A DNA stretch of 13,599 nucleotides from an uncultured Collinsella sp. (GTDB taxonomy: Bacteria; Actinomycetota; Coriobacteriia; Coriobacteriales; Coriobacteriaceae): the NCBI GenBank assembly GCA_902388545.1, contig CABMPS010000033.1, positions 1 through 13,599 of the forward strand. The letters run 5' to 3'. The position numbers and the translations under genes are program-made. Positions within the stretch are counted from its first letter, which is position 1, and every line of letters starts with the position of its first letter. Below, in pieces: positions 1-13,599 of the stretch. Under the pieces are notes generated by a model. That model searched no databases. It had not been told where the DNA came from and saw only the letters and a list, made by a program, of their open reading frames with translations.

Positions 1-2018
1 GTCTGCGCACATGCTGCGCTGACCGTAAGAACATAGTTCTGTGAGAAGAACGGGAATTGCCTCGGATCCACCGGCGGATGCGGCATCGGCGTGCCCTGGG
101 GCCCACCCTGCGGTCCGCCCTGACCGCCCATCATCTTATCGATGGCGTCCTGAACCTCGCCCTCGAACTTTTTCATTCCCTCGTGTAAACGACGCTGACC
201 GTCCTCAGAGCGCAGCTCCTCCATCTGCTCGGGCGAAATACCCAGTAGCTCGCCCAGCACGCCCATCATCTCGTTTCGCATGCGCTCGCTCGTATCCTCG
301 TCAGCAAAACGGCGCACCTCGGCGCGCGCCAGCGAATCGACCGTCATACGCTCCTTGCCGTTAAGCCCCAGGTCGGACCACGCGAGCATGTACGGCCAGG
401 AGCGCTCGGCAAACGAACGGGACGAAACGATCGGTGCCGTCGGCAACATGCGGCGGGCAGCCTCACCCTGTCGAACGAGCATCAGCAGCAGCGAGCAGGC
501 CTCAGGCTTGCCAGCGGCCATCGGGATGTCGTCGAAAGATCGATTGCGGTCCACGTGCGCCTCAAGCGCGCCATCGATCTCACCCGGCTCGAGCCCGCCG
601 AGCAGCTGTGCCGCGCGGTCGAGCATGTCGACCGGGCCGTCGAGCGTCGAGAGCGCCCGCGCCAGCACGCGCTCCATGCAATCTTCCACCGCGTTGAGCG
701 TCACGAGCTCCTGCGGCACCACGGCAGACGTGCGGTTGCGCACGCGCGCCACAAACTCGAGCGTCGACAGGTACACATCACCAAAGGGCGCGTAATCGCC
801 CTGGTAGCCACCGCAAAGCGCCGGTGCCGCCAACGCATACTCGGTCTTGGAAAGCGGGCTCAGAGCCATCGCGCCCAGCTCGAGCGCCGTATCCTCCAGC
901 ATGAGGCCCAGCGTACGCGAGCGCAGGCGCTCGGCATCGCCCGCTGACACATCGCGGTCGAGTACGCGCGCCGCATCCGGCGCATCGCGCTCAACCGTGC
1001 GAATATGCAGGCGCTCGGCAATCGCGCGAACGGCGGCACAACGGGCGGCCTCAGCCTCTTCCTGCGCTGGCGTAAAGATGCGGTTGCGGTCCAACACCAG
1101 GCCGATCACATTGCGCGAACCCAATGCATCGACAGCCAGCGCCGCAAGCAAAGACGACGGCAGGTCGCCCTCGAGCGCCACCACGGCACGCGACGCGCCA
1201 TGGGCACGGGCGTTATCGCGCACAGCGAGCACCAGCGCCTGCCACAGCCACTCATCGGAACGGAACTCGGGCAGTTCGTGATCTTCCAGGGCATCGAGCA
1301 TCACGCCGCGCTGAATCTCCTGAACCAGCAGGCTCTCCTCAAAACACGGCGCCTGGGCCACCACGCGACCGCAGTCGTCGAGCACAAACGAACCGCCGGT
1401 ATACACCGACTCGTCATAGGCACCGACCGGCGCCATGCAGGCAAACCACACGCTGCGCTTGGATGCGATCTTGCGGTAGGCACCGCTGCGAACGGCGGCA
1501 ATGGCGGCCGTCTCGCGGTCGGTCATATCAAACGCGTTGAACTGAAAATAGGCGATGAGGTCGACGCCGGTCGGCAGCATCTCGAGTTCGCGGTCCAAGT
1601 CGAAGATCACGGCGATACGCACGCCGTCCACGTCGAACACCGGCGGTGCCCAACGGGCATCACCGTTCCCACCACGCTGCAGAGCAATGCTCGAACGGGC
1701 CGGCACCACATGACCGTCCTTGAGCATCATGTAGTCGAGTAGCGGCTGGCCCTCAAACGAAACCGCCGCGGGCACGATGCAGATCATGTCAAGCTCCTGG
1801 ATGCGCTCGGCGACACCAGTCAAGCCGGCAAGCATGTCGTGCTCAAAGTCGGCAGCGCCCACCAGGCCACCGGGCATGGCGCCCATAAAGAGCGGAGCCG
1901 GAACGCACAGCACGCGCGCCCCGCGCTCGTGGGCCAGACGAGCCTGGTCCTCGATGCGGCCGCAAATGCCCTCAATATCACCCAGGCGCATATCGATCTG
2001 TGCAAGCGCGAGCTTCAT
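1..2018 (-). CDS. NAD synthetase-like two-domain protein, probable pseudoenzyme; C-terminus cut by window edge
   Basis: The ATG at 2018 opens a frame that stays open to the window edge (672 codons visible). An AAAGGG-type ribosome binding site lies about 7 bases upstream. Residues 1-250 follow the glutaminase (nitrilase-fold) domain of glutamine-dependent NadE: it begins KLALAQIDMRLGD, and APVGAYDESVYTGGSF matches the family's VGGQDE-FDGGSF region. Residues about 255-549 follow the NAD synthetase domain: LAALAVDALGSRNVIG, then GGYQGDYAPFGDVY, then a stretch near 520-549 resembling the family's usual C-terminal end. The catalytic residues are missing. Amidase Glu is Ala41 (VPAPL for FPEL), Lys is Ser109 or Ser110, and Cys is Phe139 (IFDL for ICED). 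The ATP-binding SGGxDS is EGDLPS at 283-288, and TGNKSE is PLSKTE at 388-393. Residues 550-672 are an added tail with a Gly/Pro/Gln-rich stretch near 631-642. I infer a non-catalytic, perhaps regulatory or binding, role. Automated pipelines would probably call it NAD+ synthase. Confidence 0.85.
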   Translation of the reverse strand, partial: MKLALAQIDMRLGDIEGICGRIEDQARLAHERGARVLCVPAPLFMGAMPGGLVGAADFEHDMLAGLTGVAERIQELDMICIVPAAVSFEGQPLLDYMMLKDGHVVPARSSIALQRGGNGDARWAPPVFDVDGVRIAVIFDLDRELEMLPTGVDLIAYFQFNAFDMTDRETAAIAAVRSGAYRKIASKRSVWFACMAPVGAYDESVYTGGSFVLDDCGRVVAQAPCFEESLLVQEIQRGVMLDALEDHELPEFRSDEWLWQALVLAVRDNARAHGASRAVVALEGDLPSSLLAALAVDALGSRNVIGLVLDRNRIFTPAQEEAEAARCAAVRAIAERLHIRTVERDAPDAARVLDRDVSAGDAERLRSRTLGLMLEDTALELGAMALSPLSKTEYALAAPALCGGYQGDYAPFGDVYLSTLEFVARVRNRTSAVVPQELVTLNAVEDCMERVLARALSTLDGPVDMLDRAAQLLGGLEPGEIDGALEAHVDRNRSFDDIPMAAGKPEACSLLLMLVRQGEAARRMLPTAPIVSSRSFAERSWPYMLAWSDLGLNGKERMTVDSLARAEVRRFADEDTSERMRNEMMGVLGELLGISPEQMEELRSEDGQRRLHEGMKKFEGEVQDAIDKMMGGQGGPQGGPQGTPMPHPPVDPRQFPFFSQNYVLTVSAACAQ

Positions 2019-2055
2019 GGCTCAGCCCTTTCCGTCGTAAACCATCGAAATCGTA

Positions 2056-2089
2056 GTAAAAGCGCCGGCCGCATGATGCAGTCGGCGCT
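2056..2089 (-). terminator. Probable Rho-independent terminator after the superoxide reductase gene
   Basis: Read on the minus strand, AGCGCCG (2089-2083) and CGGCGCT (2067-2061) form a perfect 7 bp GC-rich stem, and a run of four T follows at once. The loop contains a small inner GCA/TGC pairing. It begins 46 bases after the superoxide reductase stop codon. It has no T-run in the plus direction, so it should work only for minus-strand transcripts. It would separate the superoxide reductase transcript from the NadE-like gene, which then needs its own promoter or read-through. The short T-run makes its strength uncertain. Confidence 0.6.
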
Positions 2090-2135
2090 CGCATGTGCAT
2101 ATGCTAGCTATGATACCCCGAGCGGGGGCGCGCTC

Positions 2136-2498
2136 CTAGAACGTCGCGGACCACAGCCCGTGCAGGTTGCAGTAGGCATAGACGGTACCGGTCTTGGAAC
2201 CGCCGGCAAAAAACGTCGCGGGCTTCATGCCGGGCTCAAGGTAATGGACCTCTAAGCGGCCCTCGGCCTCAAGGGCGATCCACTCAATATAGTGCTCGGG
2301 CAGGCTGGGGTGCTCGACCGAGCCAACGCGTGCGCGAATCACGTGACCGTCGCGCTCGGTCTCGACAACAGGCACGTGCTTCTCGTGCGCCGCGTCCTCA
2401 GTGTTTGCGGTCAGTTCCGTGCAACCGGCAGGGGTTGCAACGTCGTTGCCAAGGGCGGCAATGAGCTTACCGTCGGGGTCCTTAAAGAATTTCGCCAT
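2136..2498 (-). CDS. Superoxide reductase (desulfoferrodoxin family, without the N-terminal rubredoxin-like iron centre)
   Basis: This 120-residue cytoplasmic enzyme is expected to reduce superoxide to hydrogen peroxide at a mononuclear Fe(His4Cys) centre, taking electrons from rubredoxin or a similar donor. It protects anaerobes without releasing oxygen. All five expected iron ligands are visible: His41 in EKHVP, His63 in VEHP, His69 in EHYIEW, and Cys110 and His113 in YCNLHG. Glu39 and Lys40, which assist catalysis in the family, are also kept. The first 38 residues align with the desulforedoxin domain of class I proteins but have lost its CxxC and CC iron ligands; only Cys26 remains and it does not align with a ligand. 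This resembles class III. The start is fixed by AAGGAG six bases before the ATG; a longer in-frame reading from 2639 lacks such a site. The 150 bases upstream hold no clear promoter. A terminator follows the gene. Confidence 0.93.
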   Translation of the reverse strand: MAKFFKDPDGKLIAALGNDVATPAGCTELTANTEDAAHEKHVPVVETERDGHVIRARVGSVEHPSLPEHYIEWIALEAEGRLEVHYLEPGMKPATFFAGGSKTGTVYAYCNLHGLWSATF

Positions 2499-2504
2499 GA
2501 TGTT

Positions 2505-2510
2505 CTCCTT
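2505..2510 (-). promoter_or_regulatory. Shine-Dalgarno site of the superoxide reductase gene
   Basis: AAGGAG lies six bases upstream of the ATG at 2498. It decides the start in favour of the 120-residue product that begins MAKFFK, and against an upstream in-frame ATG near 2639 that would add 47 residues of non-conserved sequence. Confidence 0.85.
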
Positions 2511-2648
2511 TGCTGACGTGCCAATGTTCTTGATGGTTCTTATGCCCAAAGGCAGGCAAACCATCCACGGCATTGCAAATGAACACATAACGGGCGGGGA
2601 CGATGGGGCAGCGTGCGCTATCCGCCCTGGCGGCCCCACCCGAGCGGG

Positions 2649-5600
2649 TTAGCGCCCGTCGCCGCCCAGCAGCGCCAGAACATCTTCGCGGGTAAACAGC
2701 GCCGACGAGATGCCGTCGCCGCCGAGCACGCTGTTGACCAGGTCGCGCTTGGACTCCTGCATCTGCATAATGCGTTCCTCGATCGTGCCCTTGGCGATGA
2801 GCTTGTACACGGTCACGGTATGTTGCTGGCCAATACGGTGCGCGCGGTCGGTCGCCTGGTCCTGCGCTGCCACGTTCCACCACGGGTCGTAGTGGATGAC
2901 CACGTCGGCCGCCGTCAGGTTAAGGCCCACGCCGCCCGCCTTGAGCGAAATCAAAAAGACCGGAACCTCGCCCGCTTGGAACTGCGCGACCATCTTGGCG
3001 CGGCTCTCCTTAGACGAAGCGCCCGTGAGCTTAAGGAAGGCGATGTCCTCCTTGGCCAAGCGCTTAGCGATGATATCGAGCATACCCGTAAACTGGCTGA
3101 ACAACAGGATGCGATGCCCGCCGTCGAGTGCGCCGTGCACGAGCTCCATACACGTATCGAGCTTGGCGCTCCCCGCCTTGTAATCCTCGTAGTGTAGACG
3201 CGGGTCGCAGCAGATCTGGCGCAGCTTGGTGAGCTCGGCGAGCACCTTGAGCTTGTCCTTCTTAAACTCCCCAGCCTCGCGGTGCTGCACCTGCTGGGCG
3301 ATGCGGTCCTGGTTGGCCAGGTAGAGCTTGCGTTGCTCGCCGGTAAGCTGTGCCATCACCGTGTCTTCGATCTTTTCGGGCAGGTCGGCCACCACGTCTT
3401 CCTTAACGCGACGCAGCACAAACGGCGACACGAGCGCCTGCAGGCGAGCGGCGCTATCGCCCTCGGCATGCTCGACGGGGCTCTCAAAGCGCTTGGCAAA
3501 CGACTCGCGCGTCCCCAAAAGGCCCGGCATCAAAAAGTCGAAGATGCTCCAGAGCTCGGACAGGCGGTTTTCGATGGGCGTGCCCGTCAGGGCAAAGCGC
3601 ACGCCGGCAGGCAGGCGCTTTGCGGCGCGTGGCACCTGCGTGAGCGGATTTTTAATGTACTGTGCCTCATCGAGCACCACGCGGGCAAAATCCTGCTCGA
3701 CGTACTCGTCGATATCGCGCCGCATAAGGTCATACGACGTCACGACCACGCTATGCTCGGCCACGCCGGCGATCTGCACGCGGCGTTGAGCCTTGGCGCC
3801 CACAATGGCGCACACATCGAGCGACGGTGCAAAGCGCTCCAGCTCGGCAGTCCAGTTGTACACGAGTGAGGCCGGGCATACCACGAGCGTGGGCTTGGTG
3901 TCCCCCGCCTCCACGCGCGCCAGAATATGCGCAATCATCTGGAGCGTTTTGCCCAGGCCCATGTCGTCGGCCAAGATGCCGCCAAGGCCCAGGTGTTCGA
4001 GCGAGCCGAGCCACTGGTATCCGTCGACCTGGTAGCCGCGCATCGTTGCCTTGAGCGATGCCGGCACCGTAAAGTCCATCTTGCCGAGCGTATCCAGGCG
4101 CTCGACGGTACGGCGGAACGCAGCGTCGCGATCGGCCTCGAGCGCCGGCGTGCGTGCGAGCATGCTGTCGACGAACAGGGTGCTCGACGCGGGAAGCGAC
4201 ACGCCGTCGAGCAGGTCGACGGCATCGACACCCAGATCCTCGGCAAGGCCAAACGCGGCGCGCGCCCCCTCGTCCAGGCGAATGATGTCGCCGGACGTAA
4301 GGCGCGCAAACGTTTGATGGCGCTTGTACGAATCGAGATAGACGGCAAGGTCCGCGGCCGAAAGCCCGCTCGCGCCCAGCTCGACATCGAGCAGATTGCT
4401 CTTAACGGTCGCACGAACCGAGAGCTTGGGCGCGGGGCGGACCGAAATCTGGCGCAGACGGTCGCTGAGCATGACCTCACCCAGTTCGGACAGGGCGGAC
4501 AGGCCCTCGGTCAGCAAATGGAACAGGCTCTCGTCATCGCGTTCCTCAAACGCCAGGCCGCCCTCGTAAAAGTCGAAATACAGGGCTGCCGTGTCCATAA
4601 CGCGAAACTCTGCCACCTCGTCGCGGGACGGCACACCGGGGCGCTGCTCTTCGAAGGGGCTGCCCGGAGCGCCCAGGCTAAAGAGATCCGCCGACCAATC
4701 GCCGTAGGTAACCGTAATTTTGCAGGTCACGAGCCCATCGTCGACACCGATCGCCATAGCAAAGCTCGGCTCGGGTGCCACGGTATCGAGCGCGGCGGGC
4801 GCGGTGAGGTCGGTGTAGTCGCGCAAAATGGGCAGCGCCATACGGCAGAACTCACCCACCTGCTCGGCGGCAATATGGGCGGGCGTGCGGCACGGCAGCA
4901 AGCGCGACAAAAAAGGTGCGACATGCTGAGCAAATGCAGCGTCGGTACGGCGCGCGCAGCGCGTGTCAACCAAGTAGGCGGCATCGCCCGACGCAAAGCA
5001 GTACATATCGGCGGGCAGGCGCAGGTCATAGCTACCACCAGCCGCCGGCGCGATTTTGGCGGCAAGCAGCGGTGAGCGCTTAGCGGATACCTCGTCCTCC
5101 CCTTGCGGAGACAGCTCAACCGCCACGTCGTAGGTGCGATGCGTCGTCATCCCCCGCGACCAGGCGGGCTCAAAGGAGATGGTCTGGCCGCGCAGCAGGT
5201 CCAGCACATATACGATGCTATGCTCGGGCAGCGGCAACTGACGCTCGGCAACAAAACCACTGCGGGCAAAGTCGTACGACGCCGAACGCGAGCTTGTGAT
5301 GTCATCGAGATAGGCAACTGTCGTCGCAACAAGGTTGAGCAGCTTTGCCGATGTTTCGTCAAAGGCCTCAGGTGAATGGACAAACGTGAGCTTCTTGCCA
5401 TAGGAGAACGTGCCGCCGCGCACGTAGGCATCGGCCATGCCGTCGATGTCCTTGACCACGTAGGAGACCGATCCACAGCGAATGCGGAACTCGAGCGCCC
5501 AGCTAAAGCGGTCAGCGAACAGCGGATTGTAGTACGGCACCAACGAGGGCTCCAACGCCGCTTTGGGGGCGTCGGGATCAACGGCACCGGCAAGCTTGCG

Positions 5601-6113
5601 GCGCATGCTCGCCAGCTCATCCATGCGCGCGTCCGAAAGATCGGAAAGCGCCGCCACAAGGCTCGGGCTCGTGGGGACGGGCGTCGGGAAGGGAAAGTTG
5701 GGGTTGACGGCCGGCGCGGCGGACGCGGTGCGCGCGGGCTGTTTCGGCTGCGCCGTAAACGTGCGGACCGGCGTGCGCAAACCTTCGACGGGCTCGGCGC
5801 CGCTGGCATCCAAATACGCCAGAGCCGTGGCAATAGCGTGCTTGCACATACCGGGGTAACGATAGGCGGCGGGGCAATCGCAGTCGTAGTCGATCACCTC
5901 GTGCTCGTCCATGTCGAGCGCCACGTGCGTCTTGTACAGGTCGCCGCGCGAGCCGCGCACCGACCCCTCAATCGTCACGCTTTTGGAGAAGCGCGAGCCG
6001 CTGTCCTCAATCGACAGCACGGCACCGTTGAGCATGAGCGAACGCCCCTTCATAAAGGTGCCGCTCAACGCCGCCTCTTTGCGAAGCGCCTGCGCAAACG
6101 TCCCCTGCGCCAT
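2649..6113 (-). CDS. SWIM zinc-finger SNF2-family DNA-dependent ATPase
   Basis: The product has 1154 residues. A SWIM zinc-binding motif (CxCx9CxH) uses Cys78, Cys80, Cys90 and His92. A low-complexity Pro/Ala linker (about 120-150) and a long region typical of bacterial SNF2 proteins (SNF2-associated domain) follow. The ATPase core fills the last 460 residues: Walker A in DDMGLGKT (Lys722), DEAQ at 815-818, TGTPIENRLSELWS, SQFTGML, KAGGVGLNLT, and the arginine-finger region DRAHRIGQ (His1092). Such proteins move along or remodel nucleic acid-protein complexes without unwinding the duplex; RapA, which recycles RNA polymerase, is the best-known bacterial relative. The exact target here is unknown. 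GGAGG five bases upstream supports the ATG at 6113; the in-frame GTG at 6131 has no good site. The 28 bp gap after dnaE suggests one operon and a replication- or repair-linked job, which is inference. Confidence 0.93.
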   Translation of the reverse strand: MAQGTFAQALRKEAALSGTFMKGRSLMLNGAVLSIEDSGSRFSKSVTIEGSVRGSRGDLYKTHVALDMDEHEVIDYDCDCPAAYRYPGMCKHAIATALAYLDASGAEPVEGLRTPVRTFTAQPKQPARTASAAPAVNPNFPFPTPVPTSPSLVAALSDLSDARMDELASMRRKLAGAVDPDAPKAALEPSLVPYYNPLFADRFSWALEFRIRCGSVSYVVKDIDGMADAYVRGGTFSYGKKLTFVHSPEAFDETSAKLLNLVATTVAYLDDITSSRSASYDFARSGFVAERQLPLPEHSIVYVLDLLRGQTISFEPAWSRGMTTHRTYDVAVELSPQGEDEVSAKRSPLLAAKIAPAAGGSYDLRLPADMYCFASGDAAYLVDTRCARRTDAAFAQHVAPFLSRLLPCRTPAHIAAEQVGEFCRMALPILRDYTDLTAPAALDTVAPEPSFAMAIGVDDGLVTCKITVTYGDWSADLFSLGAPGSPFEEQRPGVPSRDEVAEFRVMDTAALYFDFYEGGLAFEERDDESLFHLLTEGLSALSELGEVMLSDRLRQISVRPAPKLSVRATVKSNLLDVELGASGLSAADLAVYLDSYKRHQTFARLTSGDIIRLDEGARAAFGLAEDLGVDAVDLLDGVSLPASSTLFVDSMLARTPALEADRDAAFRRTVERLDTLGKMDFTVPASLKATMRGYQVDGYQWLGSLEHLGLGGILADDMGLGKTLQMIAHILARVEAGDTKPTLVVCPASLVYNWTAELERFAPSLDVCAIVGAKAQRRVQIAGVAEHSVVVTSYDLMRRDIDEYVEQDFARVVLDEAQYIKNPLTQVPRAAKRLPAGVRFALTGTPIENRLSELWSIFDFLMPGLLGTRESFAKRFESPVEHAEGDSAARLQALVSPFVLRRVKEDVVADLPEKIEDTVMAQLTGEQRKLYLANQDRIAQQVQHREAGEFKKDKLKVLAELTKLRQICCDPRLHYEDYKAGSAKLDTCMELVHGALDGGHRILLFSQFTGMLDIIAKRLAKEDIAFLKLTGASSKESRAKMVAQFQAGEVPVFLISLKAGGVGLNLTAADVVIHYDPWWNVAAQDQATDRAHRIGQQHTVTVYKLIAKGTIEERIMQMQESKRDLVNSVLGGDGISSALFTREDVLALLGGDGR

Positions 6114-6118
6114 CACTT

Positions 6119-6123
6119 CCTCC
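6119..6123 (-). promoter_or_regulatory. Shine-Dalgarno site deciding the SNF2 start
   Basis: GGAGG stands five bases before the ATG at 6113. It lies downstream of the alternative GTG start at 6131, so translation should begin at the ATG and the product should begin MAQGTF. Confidence 0.8.
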
Positions 6124-6141
6124 AATCTCACCCGGGGTAGC

Positions 6142-9100
6142 TTAGATCACCGTCACGCGGCCCTGGTTACCCACAATGGCCTTGGCCTCGGCCAGCAGCG
6201 GAATCGAACGCGCGTTGACCTTGGCAGGTACCTCGGCACGCAGCACGCGCCCGTCCACCTGCTCGATAAAGATCTCCACGCGGTCGCCGCCCGGGTTGGC
6301 GGTAAGCACCGTGGCGAGACGCGCCATATTGCCCTGGCTAAAGCGGCTGTTGGGCACCATGACCTCAAACACCTTGGGCTTGTTGCTCTCCTCGTTGAGC
6401 TCAAGCGGCACGATCTCCTGCGCGATGATCTGGTCGCCGCGGTCCGAGCGCTCGAGCTTGCCCTTAATGCGCACAAAGGCATCGGACAGCTGCGCGCCGG
6501 TCTCGGGATCGACCTCGCCGTACAGGTACCCCTCGGCCTCTTTATAGGTCTTGGGGAACACGACGACGGTGGCCTCGCCTTCCATGTCCTCGAGCTGCAC
6601 GATGCCCATGGGGTCACCGTTTTTGGTCACGCGCTTGGACACGCTCGAGACCATGCCGGCCCACCACAGCGCCTTGCCCTCGGGAATCTCCTGGTTGATG
6701 GTGCCGCCCGTAGGATTCTGAACTTCGTAGCCGGTATCGATCTGCGAGAACGAGAAGTCGCGCGCCTTGGCTAGTGCATACTCAAACGGGCGCAGCGGGT
6801 GGTCCGAGACATAGATGCCCAGAACCTCCTTCTCCTGGCTCAACTTAAGGTGGCGGTCCCACTCCTGGCCATCTGGATCGGGCACGCTGACCTCAAAGCC
6901 CGAGCCCTCAACATCGCCAAACATGTCGAAGAACGACGTCTGGCCGCTCGCGCGATCCTTCTGGCGCTTTACCGCGGCGTCGATGATGTTCTCGGGGTTG
7001 TTCTTGTCCACAAAGTGCATCATCTGGCGACGCGGATAGCCCGTGGAGTCGAAGGCGCCTGCCTTGATGAGCGATTCGATCACACGGCGGTTTGCCTGGC
7101 TGGAGTCCACGCGCTCGACAAAGTCGTGCAGCGTCTTAAACGGGCCGCCCGCCTCGCGCTCGGCGATAATCGCCTGCGCCACGCCGGTGCCCACGCCGCG
7201 GATGCCGGCCAGACCAAAGCGCACGCCCTCCTTGGTAGCCGTGAACTCGGTACCGGACTCGTTGACATCTGGCGACAGCACGGGGATGCCGTCGTGACGG
7301 CATGCCGAGACGTAGTGCACGATCTTGTCGGTCTTGCCCGTATAGGACGTCAGAACGGCCGCCATGTACTCGTGCGGATAGTGCGCCTTGAGCCACGCCG
7401 TCTGCATAACCAGGATGGCGTAGCCGGCGGAGTGCGACTTGTTGAAGGCGTAGGACGCGAACTCGAGAACATCGTCCCAAATCTTCTGGGCGACCTCGCG
7501 CGTATAGTTGTTCTTGATGGCGCCGTTCATCCAGTGGTCGTAGGTGGTCTCGTCGGAGCCATCCTCCCAGTGGAGCACCGTCGACGTGAGCAGCTTGATC
7601 TTTTTCTTAGCCACGGGCTTACGGATACGCGAGTCCGATTCGCCCTTGGAGAAGCCGCACATCTCGACGGAGATGAGCATAACCTGCTCCTGGTAGACCA
7701 TGGTGCCGTAGGTTTCGCCCAGGATGTCGTCCAGGCGGTCGTCGTAGGAGACCGCCGGCTCCTTGCCGTTCATACGGTTGATGTAGGACGAGACCATGCC
7801 GGCGCCCAGCGGGCCCGGGCGGTACAGGGCGATCAATGCTACGACGTGCTTGTACTCGGTGGGCTTCATGTTCTTGATCGTGGCCGTCATGCCGGCGGAC
7901 TCGACCTGGAAGACGCCGGCGGTGTGGCCGGAACCCATGAGCTTAAAGATCTCGGGGTCGTCAAAGGGAATCTCTTCCTCTTTGATGTCGATGCCGAAGT
8001 TCTTTTTGATGTTTGCCTTGGCCTTGGAGATAACAGTCAGCGTGCGCAGGCCCAAGAAGTCCATCTTGAGCAGGCCCATATCGGCAACGGTATGGCCCTC
8101 GTACTGGGTAATCTCGACGCCGCCCTTGGTATCGAGCTTAGTGGGCACGTGCTCGTTGACGGGGTCGCGGCAGATCAGAACGGCGCACGCGTGCACGCCC
8201 TCGCCACGGGTGAGGCCCTCGATTGAGAGCGCCGTGTCGATGATGCGGCGGGCGTCGTCGTCCTTTTTATAGGCCTCGGCAAAATCGGGGTTAAACAGAT
8301 CCTCTTTGCCGGGCTGCTTGTCGAGCACCTGCTTGAGCTTGACCTTGGGGTCGCTCGAAACCATCTTGGACAGGCGCTGACCCATGTAGACCGGGTAGTC
8401 CAGGACGCGCGCGGCGTCGTTGATGGCCTGCTTGGCCTTAATGGTCGAGTAGGTGATGACGTGGGTGACCTTCTCGGGGCCGTAGAGCTGGCGAACGTGC
8501 TCCACGACCTCGAGGCGCCGCTCATCGTCGAAGTCCATATCGATATCGGGCATCTCGGTACGCTGCGGGGACAGGAACCTCTCGAACATCAGGCCGTTCT
8601 CGAGCGGGTCGAACGCGGTGATGTTCATGGCGTAGGCGACGATAGCGCCGGCGGCCGAGCCACGGCCGGGGCCGACGCCGATGCCGTTGTCCTTGGCCCA
8701 TTGCACGTACTCGGCAACGATCAAGAAGTAGGCGGCAAAGCCCTTGTCGCAGATGACTTTGTATTCGTACTCAAAGCGCTCTTTGATGTTGACGCCACCA
8801 ATCTCGCGCGTGGCCCAGTCGTCGCCGTAGTGCTGGCGCAGGCCCTTCTCGCACTCGCGGCGGAACTGGCTCTCGTGCGTCTCGCCGGGATCGAGCAGCG
8901 GGAAGCGCGGCAGGATGATGGAGTCCCAGTCCAGCTCTACGTAGCACTTGTCGGCGATCTCGAGCGTGTTGTCGCAGGCCTCGGGGCAATACGGGAACAT
9001 CGCCCGCATCTCCTCCTCGGTCTTCATATAAAACTCCGAGCCGGTCATGCGCATGCGGTTGGGGTCGTCGACCTTGGCGTTCATGCCAATGCACATGATG

Positions 9101-9945
9101 ACGTCCTGCACCGGCGCGTCCTCGCGGCGCAGGTAGTGGAAGTCGTTGGTGGCAATGACTTTGACGCCCACCTGCTTGGCGATATCGATGAGCGTGCGGT
9201 CCATCTGCTCGTCGGTCAGGCCGTTGTCGGTGGTGATGCCGTGTTCCTGGATCTCGATATAAAAGTCGCCGGGTTCGAAGGTATCGCGGAAGGTCTCGGC
9301 CCACTTGATGGCGCCCTCCATGTCACCGCGGTCGATGTATTTGGGAATGATGCCCGCGATGCAGGCGCTCGTGCAGATCATGCCCTTGGCATGGCGGCGC
9401 AGGTTGTCGAGCGTCACGCGGGGCTTGTAGTAAAAGCCCTGCACGGCGGCCTCGGAAACCGTCTGCATCAGGTTGACGTAGCCCTCCTGGTCCTTGGCCA
9501 GGAGGATCATGTGGTAGAGCTCGGGCTTATGGTCGCGGGCAAGGGTCTCGTCCGGCGTAAAGTAGACCTCGCAGCCAAAGATGGGCTTGATGACCAGGGG
9601 CGGCTTGAGCTCGTCGATATTGCCCTTCTCGTCCCACATAGCCATGTCCTTAACGTACTGGGCATGCTCGCGCGGGTTTTCCTCGGGGTCGGGCTCCACC
9701 AGCTCGTCGCGGCGGTCCTTTTCCAAGAAGGCCTTGTCGTGGCTCCAGGTTTTGTACTCGGGCGTGTTGTGGTTAACGGCGTCGCAGGCCAGCGCCAAGT
9801 CGGGCACGCCATACATGTAGCCGTGATCGGTAATGGCCACGGCAGGCATGCCAAGCTCAACGGCACGGTTGACCATATCCTGGATACGGGTTGCGCCGTC
9901 GAGCATGGAGAAAACAGTGTGATTGTGCAGATGGACGAATGCCAT
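6142..9945 (-). CDS. dnaE: DNA polymerase III subunit alpha
   Basis: This is the 1267-residue catalytic subunit of the replicative polymerase. An N-terminal PHP domain begins FVHLHNHTVFSMLDG, with further metal-site blocks ITDHG (Asp40, His41), GCE (Glu126), His145, CTSAC and ATNDFHYL. Enough ligands are kept that PHP 3'-5' proofreading is plausible, as in mycobacterial DnaE1. The polymerase catalytic aspartates are Asp467 and Asp469 in PDIDMDF and Asp629 in KMDFLGL. Family blocks GPGRGSAAG, YRPGPL, YQEQVM and FNKSH (834-838) are present. A helix-hairpin-helix region (GIRGVGTGVA), a likely beta-clamp binding motif QTSFFDMF (from Gln1002) and an OB-fold (ALWWAGMVSSV) follow. The ATG has GGAG eight bases upstream. 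Two oddities are a charged insertion of about 55-60 residues in the PHP domain and a changed, longer segment before FNKSH. It is followed by the SNF2 gene after 28 bp, probably co-transcribed. Confidence 0.97.
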   Translation of the reverse strand: MAFVHLHNHTVFSMLDGATRIQDMVNRAVELGMPAVAITDHGYMYGVPDLALACDAVNHNTPEYKTWSHDKAFLEKDRRDELVEPDPEENPREHAQYVKDMAMWDEKGNIDELKPPLVIKPIFGCEVYFTPDETLARDHKPELYHMILLAKDQEGYVNLMQTVSEAAVQGFYYKPRVTLDNLRRHAKGMICTSACIAGIIPKYIDRGDMEGAIKWAETFRDTFEPGDFYIEIQEHGITTDNGLTDEQMDRTLIDIAKQVGVKVIATNDFHYLRREDAPVQDVIMCIGMNAKVDDPNRMRMTGSEFYMKTEEEMRAMFPYCPEACDNTLEIADKCYVELDWDSIILPRFPLLDPGETHESQFRRECEKGLRQHYGDDWATREIGGVNIKERFEYEYKVICDKGFAAYFLIVAEYVQWAKDNGIGVGPGRGSAAGAIVAYAMNITAFDPLENGLMFERFLSPQRTEMPDIDMDFDDERRLEVVEHVRQLYGPEKVTHVITYSTIKAKQAINDAARVLDYPVYMGQRLSKMVSSDPKVKLKQVLDKQPGKEDLFNPDFAEAYKKDDDARRIIDTALSIEGLTRGEGVHACAVLICRDPVNEHVPTKLDTKGGVEITQYEGHTVADMGLLKMDFLGLRTLTVISKAKANIKKNFGIDIKEEEIPFDDPEIFKLMGSGHTAGVFQVESAGMTATIKNMKPTEYKHVVALIALYRPGPLGAGMVSSYINRMNGKEPAVSYDDRLDDILGETYGTMVYQEQVMLISVEMCGFSKGESDSRIRKPVAKKKIKLLTSTVLHWEDGSDETTYDHWMNGAIKNNYTREVAQKIWDDVLEFASYAFNKSHSAGYAILVMQTAWLKAHYPHEYMAAVLTSYTGKTDKIVHYVSACRHDGIPVLSPDVNESGTEFTATKEGVRFGLAGIRGVGTGVAQAIIAEREAGGPFKTLHDFVERVDSSQANRRVIESLIKAGAFDSTGYPRRQMMHFVDKNNPENIIDAAVKRQKDRASGQTSFFDMFGDVEGSGFEVSVPDPDGQEWDRHLKLSQEKEVLGIYVSDHPLRPFEYALAKARDFSFSQIDTGYEVQNPTGGTINQEIPEGKALWWAGMVSSVSKRVTKNGDPMGIVQLEDMEGEATVVVFPKTYKEAEGYLYGEVDPETGAQLSDAFVRIKGKLERSDRGDQIIAQEIVPLELNEESNKPKVFEVMVPNSRFSQGNMARLATVLTANPGGDRVEIFIEQVDGRVLRAEVPAKVNARSIPLLAEAKAIVGNQGRVTVI

Positions 9946-9984
9946 GTGATGAGCTCCGATGCGGGTTCGTGTTCTGACTGAACG

Positions 9985-9990
9985 ATTTTA
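9985..9990 (-). promoter_or_regulatory. Candidate -10 element for dnaE
   Basis: TAAAAT on the minus strand begins 45 bases upstream of the dnaE ATG and matches five of six bases of the TATAAT consensus. No convincing -35 hexamer stands 16-18 bases further upstream, so the call rests on one box. Its place between the stem-loop and dnaE fits a separate dnaE promoter. Confidence 0.35.
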
Positions 9991-10046
9991 CCGCACGGCA
10001 CGGACAGCACCCGAACCTAGCCAAACCCACACGGCTCCTCTTGCAG

Positions 10047-10109
10047 TTGCGGTGGAATAGCTCCCGCTTAGGCCGCCTGGGCCGCAATACAGGAACTATT
10101 CCACCGCAA
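10047..10109 (-). repeat. Long inverted repeat (stem-loop) between the addA-like gene and dnaE
   Basis: TTGCGGTGGAATAG at 10047-10060 is matched by its perfect reverse complement at 10096-10109. In RNA from the minus strand the stem extends by six to seven more pairs, because the next mismatches (10061/10095, 10065/10091, 10067/10089) become G-U; in plus-strand RNA they would be C-A. An inner GGCC/GGCC hairpin (10071-10074, 10080-10083) caps it. It starts 12 bases after the stop codon of the addA-like gene. It lacks a T-run, so it is not a classical terminator; it may protect an mRNA end, act with Rho, or be a copy of an intergenic palindromic repeat family. Copy number cannot be judged from one window. 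Confidence 0.8.
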
Positions 10110-10121
10110 GTTATCTGAGGG

Positions 10122-10922
10122 CTAGAGATTGTAGATGACTACTTGGGGCTCGGCAGGTTCGACGAAGATGGTCGGATCGGCCTGCTCCACGCGGACGAAC
10201 TTGACCGTCACGGCCTCAAAGCCTGCCTTGTGCAACACATCGGCGTAGACGCGCGCCTGCAGGGCGTGCTTCCCCTGCAGCTGTTCCGGCGTCTCGTCCG
10301 GCGTGCCGCCCGTCTTGTAGTCGATGACCAGCGCGCGCGACGGATCGGCCGGGTTCGTCGCCAAAGCGTCGATGGCGCCTTCGGCATATGCACCGTGGCG
10401 AGCGATGTCCTCGTCCTCACAGCCCAGCGAAAAGAACGGCACCTCGGCACGGATACACGGCCACGCGAGCAGCTCGGCACGAACAGCCGACTTGAGCCAG
10501 CGGTCCAGGGCAACGTCGAAGCGTTCGCGCTGCTCCGGCGTCAGGCACCACAGGCGCGCCAGCGCATCGGCACGCTCAGCGGGCAGCGCATCGGCACCCA
10601 TCTCGATGAGCCACTGGCAGGCAGCATGGAAGGCCGAGCCCAGCGCCATAGGATTGCCGGTGGGCTCGACAGCAGCCACGTCCGTATCCGTCATCTCCGA
10701 GCCATCCGACTCCGCATCATCGCCAGCCTCGTCCATGGGAACACGCGTCTCGGCGGCACGGTCCTCGGCCTCGGCATGGAGCGCCGCGGCGATCGACGAA
10801 TAGCTGTACGAATCACGCGCCGGGAACGGACACGTGCCCATGCGCACGCCCGCCGCCTGGGGATACACAAGCATCGGGCTCGGGGTCGGCAGGACCGGGA
10901 ACGGCGGCTCGGGCATCTGCAC
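10122..10922 (-). CDS. AddA-like C-terminal nuclease domain, in a shifted frame from its helicase part
   Basis: This frame carries the rest of the AddA-like protein after the frame change: VYPQAAGV, a short SYSSI block, a GSAFHAA motif that opens the nuclease domain, and the PD-(D/E)xK nuclease core GAIDAL (Asp codon 10368-10370) and VIDYKTGG (Asp-Tyr-Lys codons 10314-10322). The fold cuts single-stranded DNA with bound metal as part of the double-strand-end processing machine. The frame is also open upstream to 11132, but that part is a shadow of the helicase frame. If translated on its own, the best start is the GTG at 10922, six bases after GGAGG (10929-10933), giving 266 residues; the ATG at 10916 is an alternative. 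The simplest reading is one gene broken by an indel or sequencing error. A truly separate nuclease polypeptide is possible but unproven. Confidence 0.7.
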   Translation of the reverse strand: MQMPEPPFPVLPTPSPMLVYPQAAGVRMGTCPFPARDSYSYSSIAAALHAEAEDRAAETRVPMDEAGDDAESDGSEMTDTDVAAVEPTGNPMALGSAFHAACQWLIEMGADALPAERADALARLWCLTPEQRERFDVALDRWLKSAVRAELLAWPCIRAEVPFFSLGCEDEDIARHGAYAEGAIDALATNPADPSRALVIDYKTGGTPDETPEQLQGKHALQARVYADVLHKAGFEAVTVKFVRVEQADPTIFVEPAEPQVVIYNL

Positions 10923-13599
10923 CGGCACCCTCCGACTCCGCATCGCCGCGGACAAGCCTGCCCTCGGCATCCAGTGAAGCGTTGGCCTCAAACGCCTGCT
11001 CGCCAAAGGTAAAGTCCGAAAGCGAAATGAGCTCGTAATCGCCCGGCTGAGAGTTGTCGAACACCAGGCGGTCGGCATCGAGCTGCGGCATGTCCAGAGC
11101 GTCGGTCGGCAAAATACGGCGCAGCACGTCATAGGTCAGATCGGTCTCGACGTCGAAGGTCGGCGCCGTCACCTTGCCACGGCTCACGCCGGCATCCATC
11201 GCCAAGATCACCAGCTCGCGCGCACGCGTCATGGCAACGTAGAGCAAACGAGCCCGCTCCTCGAGCGAAAGCTGCAGGTCGTCGCTGCGCAGGCGAACGA
11301 ATGCCTCGGCGGGAGAGCCCGTCGCGCAGACGTCCTCCATGAGCTCCGGCGGCAACCATAGCGACGTGCCCTTGCCCTTAAACGCATGCTCAAACTGTTT
11401 TTTGACGTCGTCGCCCTTCACAAAGGTTCCGTCGGCGAGCTTAACGCCGTCGAAGCGTGCCGGCAGCGCCACGACCTGCGCTCCGCCCTCGACGCGACCC
11501 ATCTGTGCCGTGCCCGAGGACTTACGCACGCCAAAGCACTCGGCGACCGCCACGACCGGATATTCCAGACCCTTGGAGGCGTGCACCGTCATGATGCGCA
11601 CCGCGCCGTCGCCCTCCTCGTTGAGCGCGCCCGGCGCCTCCTTGCCCGCCAAGAAGCGGTCGAAGGCCAGCGCGATGGAACGCGGCGAGTTACCGAACTC
11701 AGCCTCAGCCTCGGCCACGGCGTCGAGTGCCTTGAGCACGTTGGCGGCAATGGCCTTGCCCTCGGGACCACGCTGTGCCAGGCGTACAAACCAGCCGGAG
11801 GCGTTGACCACGTCGCGCGCGATGGCGGCGAACGAATCGCGGCCCACACGACGAAGCGCATACCGCAGCACCTCGCGGGCGCGCGTCACCAGCGGCAAGT
11901 CTTGCAAACCCAGCACGTCGAAATCACTCATAATGCCCACGTCGATATTCCGGCGCGAGGTCTCCCCCGTCTCGCTATCGAGCTTGGTCGCCAGCGCCAG
12001 GAACTCCTGGGCGCCGAACGCAAACATCGGCGAGGCGAGCAGCAGCATAAGGCCCTGCGCCGTATCGGCCGGATTGGCGAGCGCACAAACCAGGGCGCGC
12101 ACCGTCTGCACCTCGGCTGCCTGGGCAAAGACAGAGCCACCCGCGATCACGCAGTCGAGCCCCTGATCGCGGAAGGCTTGCGCATAGACGTCGGCGTTGG
12201 TCATGCGGCCCAGCAGCAGCACCATGCCGCCCTGGGGCTGGCCGGCATCGGCAAGCGCGCGGAAGCGTTCGGCGATCGCACGGGCCTTGGCCTGCGTGCG
12301 CTCCTGCGTACTGCCGCCGGCAACAAAGAGGGCCTGGCGACGCGAGGCGTCCGCCACCAGCGTGTCCTTGCGGCCGTCGCTCGCCTCAAGATCCAAAAAG
12401 CCCTGCATCAGGCCGCCGTCATCGCCGTCGAAAACGCGTGCCACGTAACGCAGCACCTCGTCATGGCTGCGGAAGTTGCGCACGAGCTTGACGAGCTCGC
12501 CGGCGGGGACATCCAGCGTGTCGACCGTCTCGGACGCCGCCGTCGAGCCCACCTTGCGCTCTTGGCGACGGAACACCTCGACCTCGGCGCCGCGGAAACG
12601 ATAGATCGACTGCTGCGCATCGCCCACGGTGCACAGCGCGCGCTCCCCCGCGCCGGTCAGGTAGCGGATCAGGTCGACCTGCATCTGGTCGGTATCCTGG
12701 AACTCGTCGATCATGACCATCTTAAAGCGGCCCTCGTAGGCGGCTCGGATGGCGGGGTAATCGCGCAGCGCCTCATAGGCCATGCGCAGCAGGTCGTTGT
12801 TGTCGAGGGCAGACTGGCCGGCCTTGAGCGCGCGGTACTCAGCCTCTACGGCACGGGCAAGCCCCACCAGCGCATCGAGCGCCGGGCCGCCGCAGGCAAG
12901 CACGATATTGATAAATGCATCGGCGGCCTCGGCCTTGAGCAGCTCGACCTGCTCCTTGGGGAACGCCTTGCTCGCGCGCGGCATGGTGCACGACATCATG
13001 AGTCGTGCCGCATCGGCCATGGTCTTGCCGCTCGCCTCAAACACATCGATGGCGTCGAGCGCCGCTTGCGCTTTCTCGGTCGCGGCCTTGCTTGCGCCCA
13101 GCGCCGCACGATAGGCATCGGCGAGTGCCGAGGTATCGGCCTGGCCGCGCGCCACGCGTACGTCGTCCATGCCGCCCGGCAGCTGGCTCGAGAGCTCCAG
13201 CAGGTCGCGCACCAGACCCTTGATGGTCGTGCCGGCGCCAAAGGGACCGCCCTCGCCCGCCATGGGATACCAGGCGTAGAGGCTTTTAAGCGAAGCGGCG
13301 AGCTCGGGGGCGGCATCGGGCGCCGTCGCGCGGGCCAGCACATGCTCAACAGCCTGGTCCATAAGCTCATCGGTATCGGTGAGCACCGTGAACTCGGGAT
13401 CGATACCCAGCTCCAACGCGTGTGCGCGCAGGATACGCGAGCACATGCCGTGAATGGTCGAGATCCACGCATCGTCGACGGTCAGGGCTTCCTCGTCCAT
13501 GCCCTCGTCGATGAGCGCGCGGCGCACGCGGTCGCGAATCTCGGCCGCGGCATCTTTGGTAAAGGTAATGGCGAGCACCTGGTCCAGATGCTCGACGAA
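10813..13599 (-). CDS. addA: AddA-like UvrD-family helicase, 5' end beyond the window, 3' end frameshifted
   Basis: The product resembles the AddA subunit of AddAB, which unwinds and trims double-strand DNA ends before recombination. The frame is open to the right edge, so the N-terminus with Walker A is outside the window. Visible superfamily 1 motifs in order: TFTKDAAAEIRDRV (Ia) near the right edge, ISTIHGMC, DEFQDT (12691-12708), VGDAQQSIYRFRGAE, LVRNFRSHDEVLRY, TVHASKGLEYPVV (near 11557-11590) and LLYVAMTRARELV (near 11208-11250). The sequence reads as normal family protein to about 10985. The last roughly 36-40 codons to the stop at 10813 look out of frame: they have poorer third-base GC and no nuclease domain, while the domain continues in the frame one base over. 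An AddB partner, if present, would lie outside the window. A RecB-like or generic UvrD-nuclease name is the alternative. Confidence 0.85.
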   Translation of the reverse strand, partial: FVEHLDQVLAITFTKDAAAEIRDRVRRALIDEGMDEEALTVDDAWISTIHGMCSRILRAHALELGIDPEFTVLTDTDELMDQAVEHVLARATAPDAAPELAASLKSLYAWYPMAGEGGPFGAGTTIKGLVRDLLELSSQLPGGMDDVRVARGQADTSALADAYRAALGASKAATEKAQAALDAIDVFEASGKTMADAARLMMSCTMPRASKAFPKEQVELLKAEAADAFINIVLACGGPALDALVGLARAVEAEYRALKAGQSALDNNDLLRMAYEALRDYPAIRAAYEGRFKMVMIDEFQDTDQMQVDLIRYLTGAGERALCTVGDAQQSIYRFRGAEVEVFRRQERKVGSTAASETVDTLDVPAGELVKLVRNFRSHDEVLRYVARVFDGDDGGLMQGFLDLEASDGRKDTLVADASRRQALFVAGGSTQERTQAKARAIAERFRALADAGQPQGGMVLLLGRMTNADVYAQAFRDQGLDCVIAGGSVFAQAAEVQTVRALVCALANPADTAQGLMLLLASPMFAFGAQEFLALATKLDSETGETSRRNIDVGIMSDFDVLGLQDLPLVTRAREVLRYALRRVGRDSFAAIARDVVNASGWFVRLAQRGPEGKAIAANVLKALDAVAEAEAEFGNSPRSIALAFDRFLAGKEAPGALNEEGDGAVRIMTVHASKGLEYPVVAVAECFGVRKSSGTAQMGRVEGGAQVVALPARFDGVKLADGTFVKGDDVKKQFEHAFKGKGTSLWLPPELMEDVCATGSPAEAFVRLRSDDLQLSLEERARLLYVAMTRARELVILAMDAGVSRGKVTAPTFDVETDLTYDVLRRILPTDALDMPQLDADRLVFDNSQPGDYELISLSDFTFGEQAFEANASLDAEGRLVRGDAESEGAGADARAAVPGPADPEPDACVSPGGGRAHGHVSVPGA
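10915..10985 (-). other. Frame-change zone inside the addA-like gene, with an internal Shine-Dalgarno site
   Basis: Upstream of this zone, coding sense is in the helicase frame (…SLSDFTFGEQAFEAN…); downstream it is in the frame one base further along (PPFPVLPTPSP…). Joining them needs one base to be skipped or two re-read, so relative to an intact gene there is one extra base or two missing. GGAGG at 10929-10933 stands six bases before a GTG (10922) and twelve before an ATG (10916), both in the nuclease frame. No obvious homopolymer or prfB-like slippery stop signal is present. Confidence 0.7.

Follow-up and report, generated by a model that had tools for sequence, protein, structure and literature searches.

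A probable NAD synthetase pseudoenzyme conserved in Coriobacteriaceae, with a putative docking peptide at its C-terminus

Results

A gene at one end of a 13,599-nucleotide stretch from an uncultured Collinsella sp. (assembly GCA_902388545.1, contig CABMPS010000033.1, positions 1 to 13,599; hereafter the window) encodes a protein that resembles glutamine-dependent NAD synthetase (NadE) over both domains and lacks the catalytic residues of both. We consider it most probable (roughly 0.64) that this protein is a conserved pseudoenzyme, namely the vertically inherited Coriobacteriales NadE, retained as a folded platform after both activities were lost, which would act by docking through the tip of its C-terminal tail. 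Comparison of the available sequences shows the order in which the residues of the two sites were lost, the presence of a replacement NadE (NadE1) in the family's genomes, purifying selection on the gene, and a disordered tail with F-S-x-N as its almost invariable end; this constrained terminal peptide is common to a sister clade in which the synthetase site is intact.

Loss of both active sites on a predicted NadE fold

The window protein matches PF02540 (37.7 bits) and PF00795 (26.4 bits) and is thus NadE-like over both domains, while its score against NF010588 (139.1 bits) lies below the curated cut-off of 479; NF002730, the octameric NadE1Gln family, was not among the five families matching it at E ≤1. 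The PDB matches were 4f4h, 3n05 and 5kha (E 9e-25 to 1.1e-23), and the fold predicted by AlphaFold2 (AF2) aligns to solved NadE with its two-domain architecture. An earlier description of the window made from its letters alone (the sequence-only reading) had proposed a NadE-shaped two-domain protein and suggested alignment to solved structures, and both the profile matches and the aligned fold agree with it.

The functional motifs of NadE, which we take to be the amidase triad, SGGxDS, TGNKSE and the Mg ligands, were checked here against intact relatives only. A search with the window protein gave 237 matches that passed the E-value threshold, 120 of which were listed; 102 of these passed a length and start filter and, together with the window protein, were reduced at 90% identity to 95 sequences. 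Among these listed matches the catalytic Glu and Cys and the ATP-loop Asp are kept in none of the 95: the Glu site (A41) is A, S, V, T or F throughout, column 140 is D in 94 and E in one, and the ATP-loop Asp site is P, A, Q, S or T in all. A larger, redundant set of 167 sequences from the window's family (f1, taken to be Coriobacteriaceae from the Collinsella and Coriobacterium names) likewise contains no row with the catalytic Glu, Lys, Cys or Asp (3, 3, 3 and 1 rows being gapped), and column 140 is D in 163 and E in one of its 164 ungapped rows. All four residues are kept in 29/29 intact relatives from the same class; these carry C at column 140, within VTICEDAW, the counterpart of AVIFDLD in the family. 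Fixation across the family puts the losses beyond chance, and a loss confined to this strain was rejected since all 95 listed sequences share it.

Most of the replacements named in the sequence-only reading hold when aligned to intact relatives: Glu to A41, Lys to Ser109/110 (S110), SGGxDS to EGDLPS (283-288), and an altered TGNKSE, which reads PLSKTE (388-393). Its placement of the lost Cys at Phe139 was wrong, because the intact relatives carry Cys at column 140, where the window protein has D140. The survey of orthologues that it had called for returned shared losses, with 0/95 of the listed sequences retaining Glu, Cys or the ATP-loop Asp. Both catalytic sites look dead, and we infer that the protein is inactive. 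Judged from its residues and modelled fold, it has the hallmarks of a pseudoenzyme: the catalytic residues are gone and the fold is predicted to be kept, the loss is common to orthologues, and the gene is under purifying selection (see below).

Stages of loss preserved in living relatives

The 29 two-domain copies from other orders of the class, in which all four residues are kept, are the best matches to profile A3; in certain further families of that class (f11, f13 and f14) only the synthetase part is matched. A second stage is represented by 43 f3-type proteins (P0121-P0163), in which the amidase is dead and the ATP loop and the Glu of TGNKSE are intact in 43/43, the label for P0122-P0163 denoting similarity to the protein of the sole f3 genome (P0121, identical with L001). 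The same half-dead state is found in 11/11 two-domain copies from f3, f4 and f6-f10 (L001, L003-L011 and L013), two half-dead homologues (P0176 and P0194) keep Glu and lack Cys, and most f2 genomes have the synthetase domain alone. Finally, both sites are lost in f1 and in f5 (taken to be Atopobiaceae from protein names), the f5 set including three of 103 matches (P0321-P0323) that are intact NadE of other lineages. The order of loss read from these living relatives is amidase residues first, synthetase residues afterwards.

Phylogeny places the family inside the Coriobacteriales NadE, with support of 100 for f1, 99 for f5, 100 for the two together, 98 when f3-type is added and 100 for all Coriobacteriales copies (82 rows, 19 of them f3-type, quick method, support by the Shimodaira-Hasegawa-like approximate likelihood ratio test only); acquisition of an unrelated NadE-like protein from another source was rejected on this placement. 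Scores against NF010588 fall stepwise, from 746.8 bits for one intact class relative through 391.4 (f3) to 141.0 (f5) and 139.1 bits (window). By kinship, the ancestor would have been of the dimeric NadE2 type.

From their residues, the f3-type proteins are probably still ammonia-dependent NAD synthetases, and the half-dead Coriobacteriales copies examined (L001, L003-L011, L013 and P0121-P0163) should depend on free ammonia. Two genomes carry second long NadE-like genes of another type beside the half-dead copy (G046:C247, L123, and G145:C5, L125; 632 and 688 aa).

Distribution, selection and the second NadE

A profile of the family found a copy, complete or nearly so, in 65/65 genomes of the Coriobacteriaceae, with an additional match of about 20 bits in two of them. 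In the Atopobiaceae, profile A1 matched 89/91 rows, some of them weakly, and G047 has a likely copy detected with the A3 profile (122 bits, 642-codon frame). Source annotations of the protein or its f5 relatives read hypothetical protein, nitrilase-related hydrolase or 'NAD+ synthase'.

The ratio of nonsynonymous to synonymous substitution rates (dN/dS) was computed against 20 loci in named genomes, all Collinsella, whose best segments are 94-98% identical to the window, which is close to C. aerofaciens. Its median is 0.053 (0.037-0.068), with 0.052 and 0.044 for the two domains and 0.080 for the helical region and tail; the neighbouring genes gave 0.043 (superoxide reductase, 18/20 loci usable), 0.080 (SNF2) and 0.008 (dnaE, 19 loci). 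In 53 same-genome pairs drawn from 11 genomes the median was 0.064 for the pseudo-NadE vs 0.090 for the intact NadE1. At larger distances dS is near saturation and the ratio, which rises to about 0.3, was not interpreted.

NadE1, of the M. tuberculosis type, is present in 65/65 f1 and 90/91 f5 rows (E ≤1.6e-137; rows counted by hand), G264 being the exception. Motifs are intact in the copies read, and the copy of G001 scores 844.9 bits against NF002730 (cut-off 473). Elsewhere in the order a strong NadE1 match occurs only in G111, G112 and G120 (completeness 82%, 99% and 77%, the match in G120 being a fragment). None of these three has an A1 match, and the A3 (half-dead) profile finds only the NadE1 locus in G111, that locus and one 24.5-bit match in G112, and nothing in G120. 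No full old copy was thus detected in these genomes, and outside f1 and f5 the arrival of NadE1 seems to be accompanied by loss of the old gene. The NadE1 of G112 (L142; that of G111 is L143) groups with f5 NadE1 with support 100 among four NadE1 rows, which hints at transfer.

These results bear on the core proposal of the sequence-only reading, a non-catalytic protein under selection that descends from glutamine-dependent NadE, which the shared losses, the low dN/dS and the second NadE support. Two of the checks that it proposed gave a low dN/dS, lower also than that of intact NadE in the same genome pairs, and a second nadE in 65/65 family genomes, with intact motifs in the copies read; close relatives with intact residues combined with relaxed selection, which it had named as counter-evidence, were not what was found.

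A disordered tail with a conserved tip

Past the NadE fold, predicted helices (560-630) are followed by a disordered linker and a short tip. Column entropy is 2.7 bits in the linker and 0.55 in the tip in f1, 2.15 and 0.65 in f5, and 0.99 (few linker residues align) and 0.04 in f3-type proteins. The last four residues read F-S-x-N in 153/167 f1, 95/103 f5 and 42/43 f3-type sequences and in 0/29 intact class relatives. Twelve of the 14 f1 exceptions are apparently truncated, fused, frame-shifted or read past the tip (P0008), one lies at a contig edge (L073) and one ends FAQN; the eight f5 exceptions comprise two ISDN ends, the three intact outsiders and three other or truncated ends. The F, S and N are fixed by the definition of this count; position x varies in f1 and f5 and is K in 41/42 f3-type proteins (FS[K/N]N). 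Three of the 32 positions kept in f1, f5 and f3-type together are tip residues.

The DNA pattern for FF-S-x-N-stop, scanned in 10 f1 genomes, matched this gene in nine and one other place, on which a general hub peptide common to many proteins was rejected (the pattern requires two Phe, and looser tips would be missed). Docking of the tip onto its own protein was likewise rejected, the tip being disordered (predicted local distance difference test, pLDDT, <50) in the monomer models of both the window protein and the f3 protein P0121. Among the roles that the sequence-only reading had listed (sensor, partner of a true NadE, scaffold), the tail tip favours docking. Eight half-dead NadEs (L128, L134, L137, L138, P0209, P0212, P0232 and P0236) end FLDN, ISAN, ILEN, FLEN, YLAN or FLAN, possibly a relative of F-S-x-N.

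Extent of the gene and its neighbours

The frame at 3-2018 on the minus strand is open in the list of open reading frames and leaves the window at its edge (Table 1). Orthologues stop after residue 661 (FFSQN-stop), and the window diverges directly past that Asn and runs on for 11 codons. The frame of 672 codons reported earlier is therefore open as claimed but is not a complete gene, its last 11 codons running off the edge beyond the orthologues' end. The stretch past residue 661 had no match in 43 genomes of the genus with up to 3 mismatches allowed, nor were the window edge bases matched in the fetched loci or viral contigs; residues 662-672 may reflect the contig edge or an insertion. Six loci (L038, L057, L063, L044, L068 and L071) have short repeat-like stretches, differing strain by strain, directly behind the pseudo-NadE stop; P0008 seems to read past the tip into one such stretch, and the window edge may be similar. 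No Pfam family scored above cut-off in the helical extension or the tails.

Table 1. Coordinates of the pseudo-NadE gene, its parts and its upstream neighbour in the window (pTM, predicted template modelling score).
Feature	Position	Strand	Remarks
Pseudo-NadE, residues 1-661, part common to orthologues	36..2018	-	AF2 pLDDT 87.8, pTM 0.83
Nitrilase/amidase-like domain, ~residues 1-250, catalytic residues lost	1269..2018	-	
A41, place of catalytic Glu	1896..1898	-	
S110, place of catalytic Lys	1689..1691	-	
D140, place of catalytic Cys	1599..1601	-	
NAD-synthetase-like domain, ~residues 251-550, catalytic motifs lost	369..1268	-	
EGDLPS, residues 283-288, former ATP loop SGGxDS	1155..1172	-	
PLSKTE, residues 388-393, former TGNKSE; K391 kept	840..857	-	
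Helical extension, residues 551-630	129..368	-	AF2 helices between 560 and 630
Low-complexity variable linker, residues 631-656	51..128	-	pLDDT <50 at 633-650
Tip F-F-S-Q-N, residues 657-661, orthologues' last residues	36..50	-	
Frame beyond orthologues' stop, off window; excluded from protein	1..35	-	
Desulfoferrodoxin/superoxide reductase gene, conserved upstream neighbour	2136..2498	-	PF01880 62.5 bits

In transcription order, the minus strand carries an addA-like helicase, dnaE, an SNF2-type helicase, the desulfoferrodoxin gene and the pseudo-NadE, the first three names being our reading of the translations. The genes ruvC, ruvA and ruvB follow downstream, in the same orientation, in 37/38 f1 loci (the remaining locus ends at the gene), 19/20 f5 loci and 0/15 other loci, and the superoxide reductase gene is found in 38/38, 15/20 and 1/15 (the f3 one), respectively; not all of these loci are independent genomes. 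On gene order alone, superoxide reductase and RuvC/A/B are the first partner candidates. In the superoxide reductase (2136-2498, minus strand) HVPV and CNLHG, presumably the iron-site motifs, are kept, but there is no N-terminal Cys motif, which is still present in the neighbour at the f3 locus (L121 8325-8723).

Discussion

Proposed history and alternative explanations

The account that we propose is as follows. The NadE of the Coriobacteriales would have lost its amidase residues first and its synthetase residues later, with the fold kept; its tail tip may be a docking peptide for one specific partner, a role that may go back to the time when the protein was still an NAD-producing enzyme and that would be the reason why the gene stayed after NadE1 arrived. 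In its full form, in which a working NAD synthetase gained tail-borne docking, shed both activities after NadE1 appeared, and was kept in 65/65 family genomes as a docking platform between the superoxide reductase gene and ruvCAB with the F-S-x-N peptide as ligand, this passage from moonlighting enzyme to pseudoenzyme is tentative, and we put it somewhat short of even odds.

Several observations weigh against this account. Some genomes can do without the gene: G091, an f5 genome in a single contig and 99% complete, shows NadE1 only, with the pseudo-NadE missing; in G264 the old gene is in pieces and NadE1 gave no match, and in G230 the old gene is matched only weakly. The tip is not universal either, given the two ISDN ends in f5, the FAQN end in f1 and the reading past the tip in the window and P0008. 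It stands out less in f3-type proteins, whose aligned linker is itself fairly conserved, and half-dead NadEs outside f1, f5 and f3-type end FLxN-like or otherwise. The reversed control for the DNA pattern matched twice, both times in G088. The ruvCAB genes are absent at the sole f3 locus examined, so that the tip must be older than, or independent of, this linkage. Lastly, G284, D297 and K391 are kept, so residual ligand binding is conceivable.

The last point leads to the idea that the dead synthetase pocket serves as a sensor, binding NAD, deamido-NAD, ATP or another nucleotide and signalling to a partner through the tail. The predicted fold is kept, G284, D297 and K391 persist in f1, f5 and f3-type proteins, and near-fixed new residues have appeared in the old site in f1 (D285 0.90, P287 0.86, R326 0.94). 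However, 39 positions conserved in the synthetase-intact relatives are lost, including S283, G285, D287, N390 and, in f5, E393, and f1 and f5 mostly differ in what replaced them, which fits decay accompanied by structural repair better than a ligand common to both; we regard a sensor as unlikely. A regulatory partner of the intact NadE1, tuning NAD synthesis as hetero-oligomer or inhibitor, seems a shade less likely still. The two genes do occur together in 65/65 f1 genomes and most f5 genomes, but G091 carries NadE1 without the pseudoenzyme, and NadE1 (octameric type) and this lineage (dimeric type) fall on separate branches of the tree, the two types being those described in PMC7196632. The proposal is weakened further by the occurrence of the tip in the sister clade, of which the single genome examined (G037) has tip and dead amidase and lacks a second NadE, the NadE1 profile only cross-matching the same locus.

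Two further explanations carry very little weight. New catalysis on the old fold might use D140 as nucleophile, given its near-invariance in f1 (163/164 ungapped), but f5 mostly has T or S at the matching position (41 and 27 of 103), Glu and Lys are also gone, and no catalytic set is common to f1 and f5. A decaying gene without function is just as improbable. In its favour, both active sites are lost, branches are long, and the gene is missing in G091 and in pieces in G264, but the conserved tip and the confident predicted fold speak against decay, and a pseudogene, already contradicted for the window's family, was rejected on the dN/dS of 0.053 and the presence in 65/65 genomes.

Relation to known systems

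Tree placement derives the family from NadE2Gln (NF010588/PRK13981; PDB 3n05, 4f4h and 5kha), with which it shares layout and fold. It differs in having neither the amidase triad nor the ATP/Mg residues, in its far lower profile score (139.1 bits vs the 479 cut-off), and in adding a predicted helical extension, a disordered tail and the F-S-x-N tip. The f3-type NadE is a sister clade with the same dead amidase and FS[K/N]N tip (42/43), but with ATP loop and TGNKSE Glu intact. The octameric NadE1Gln (NF002730/PRK02628) occupies the same genomes as a separate branch, and its listed copies do not end in F-S-x-N. The NadE2 label follows the B. thailandensis enzyme so named in PMC7196632, where NadE1 is octameric, NadE2 dimeric and NadE2 regulated by PII as a dissociable subunit; by analogy with PII, a regulatory partner for the old NadE2 would not be far-fetched. 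Pseudoenzymes with regulatory roles, such as PDX1.2, are likewise relatives without catalytic residues that are kept in a lineage. No pseudoenzyme of NadE or NAD synthetase was found in searches of the open-licence literature.

Usually a pseudoenzyme is seen only once its loss of catalysis is complete. In this case every successive state (intact, dead in the amidase, dead at both sites) survives in extant relatives, and a conserved short peptide offers a concrete handle on a function that would have outlived catalysis. If true, the proposed history would make it possible to trace how moonlighting made a pseudoenzyme out of an essential enzyme. The protein is present in 65/65 genomes examined of a family that includes the human gut genus Collinsella and, given annotations such as 'NAD+ synthase', metabolic models may assign to it an activity that its residues appear unable to support.
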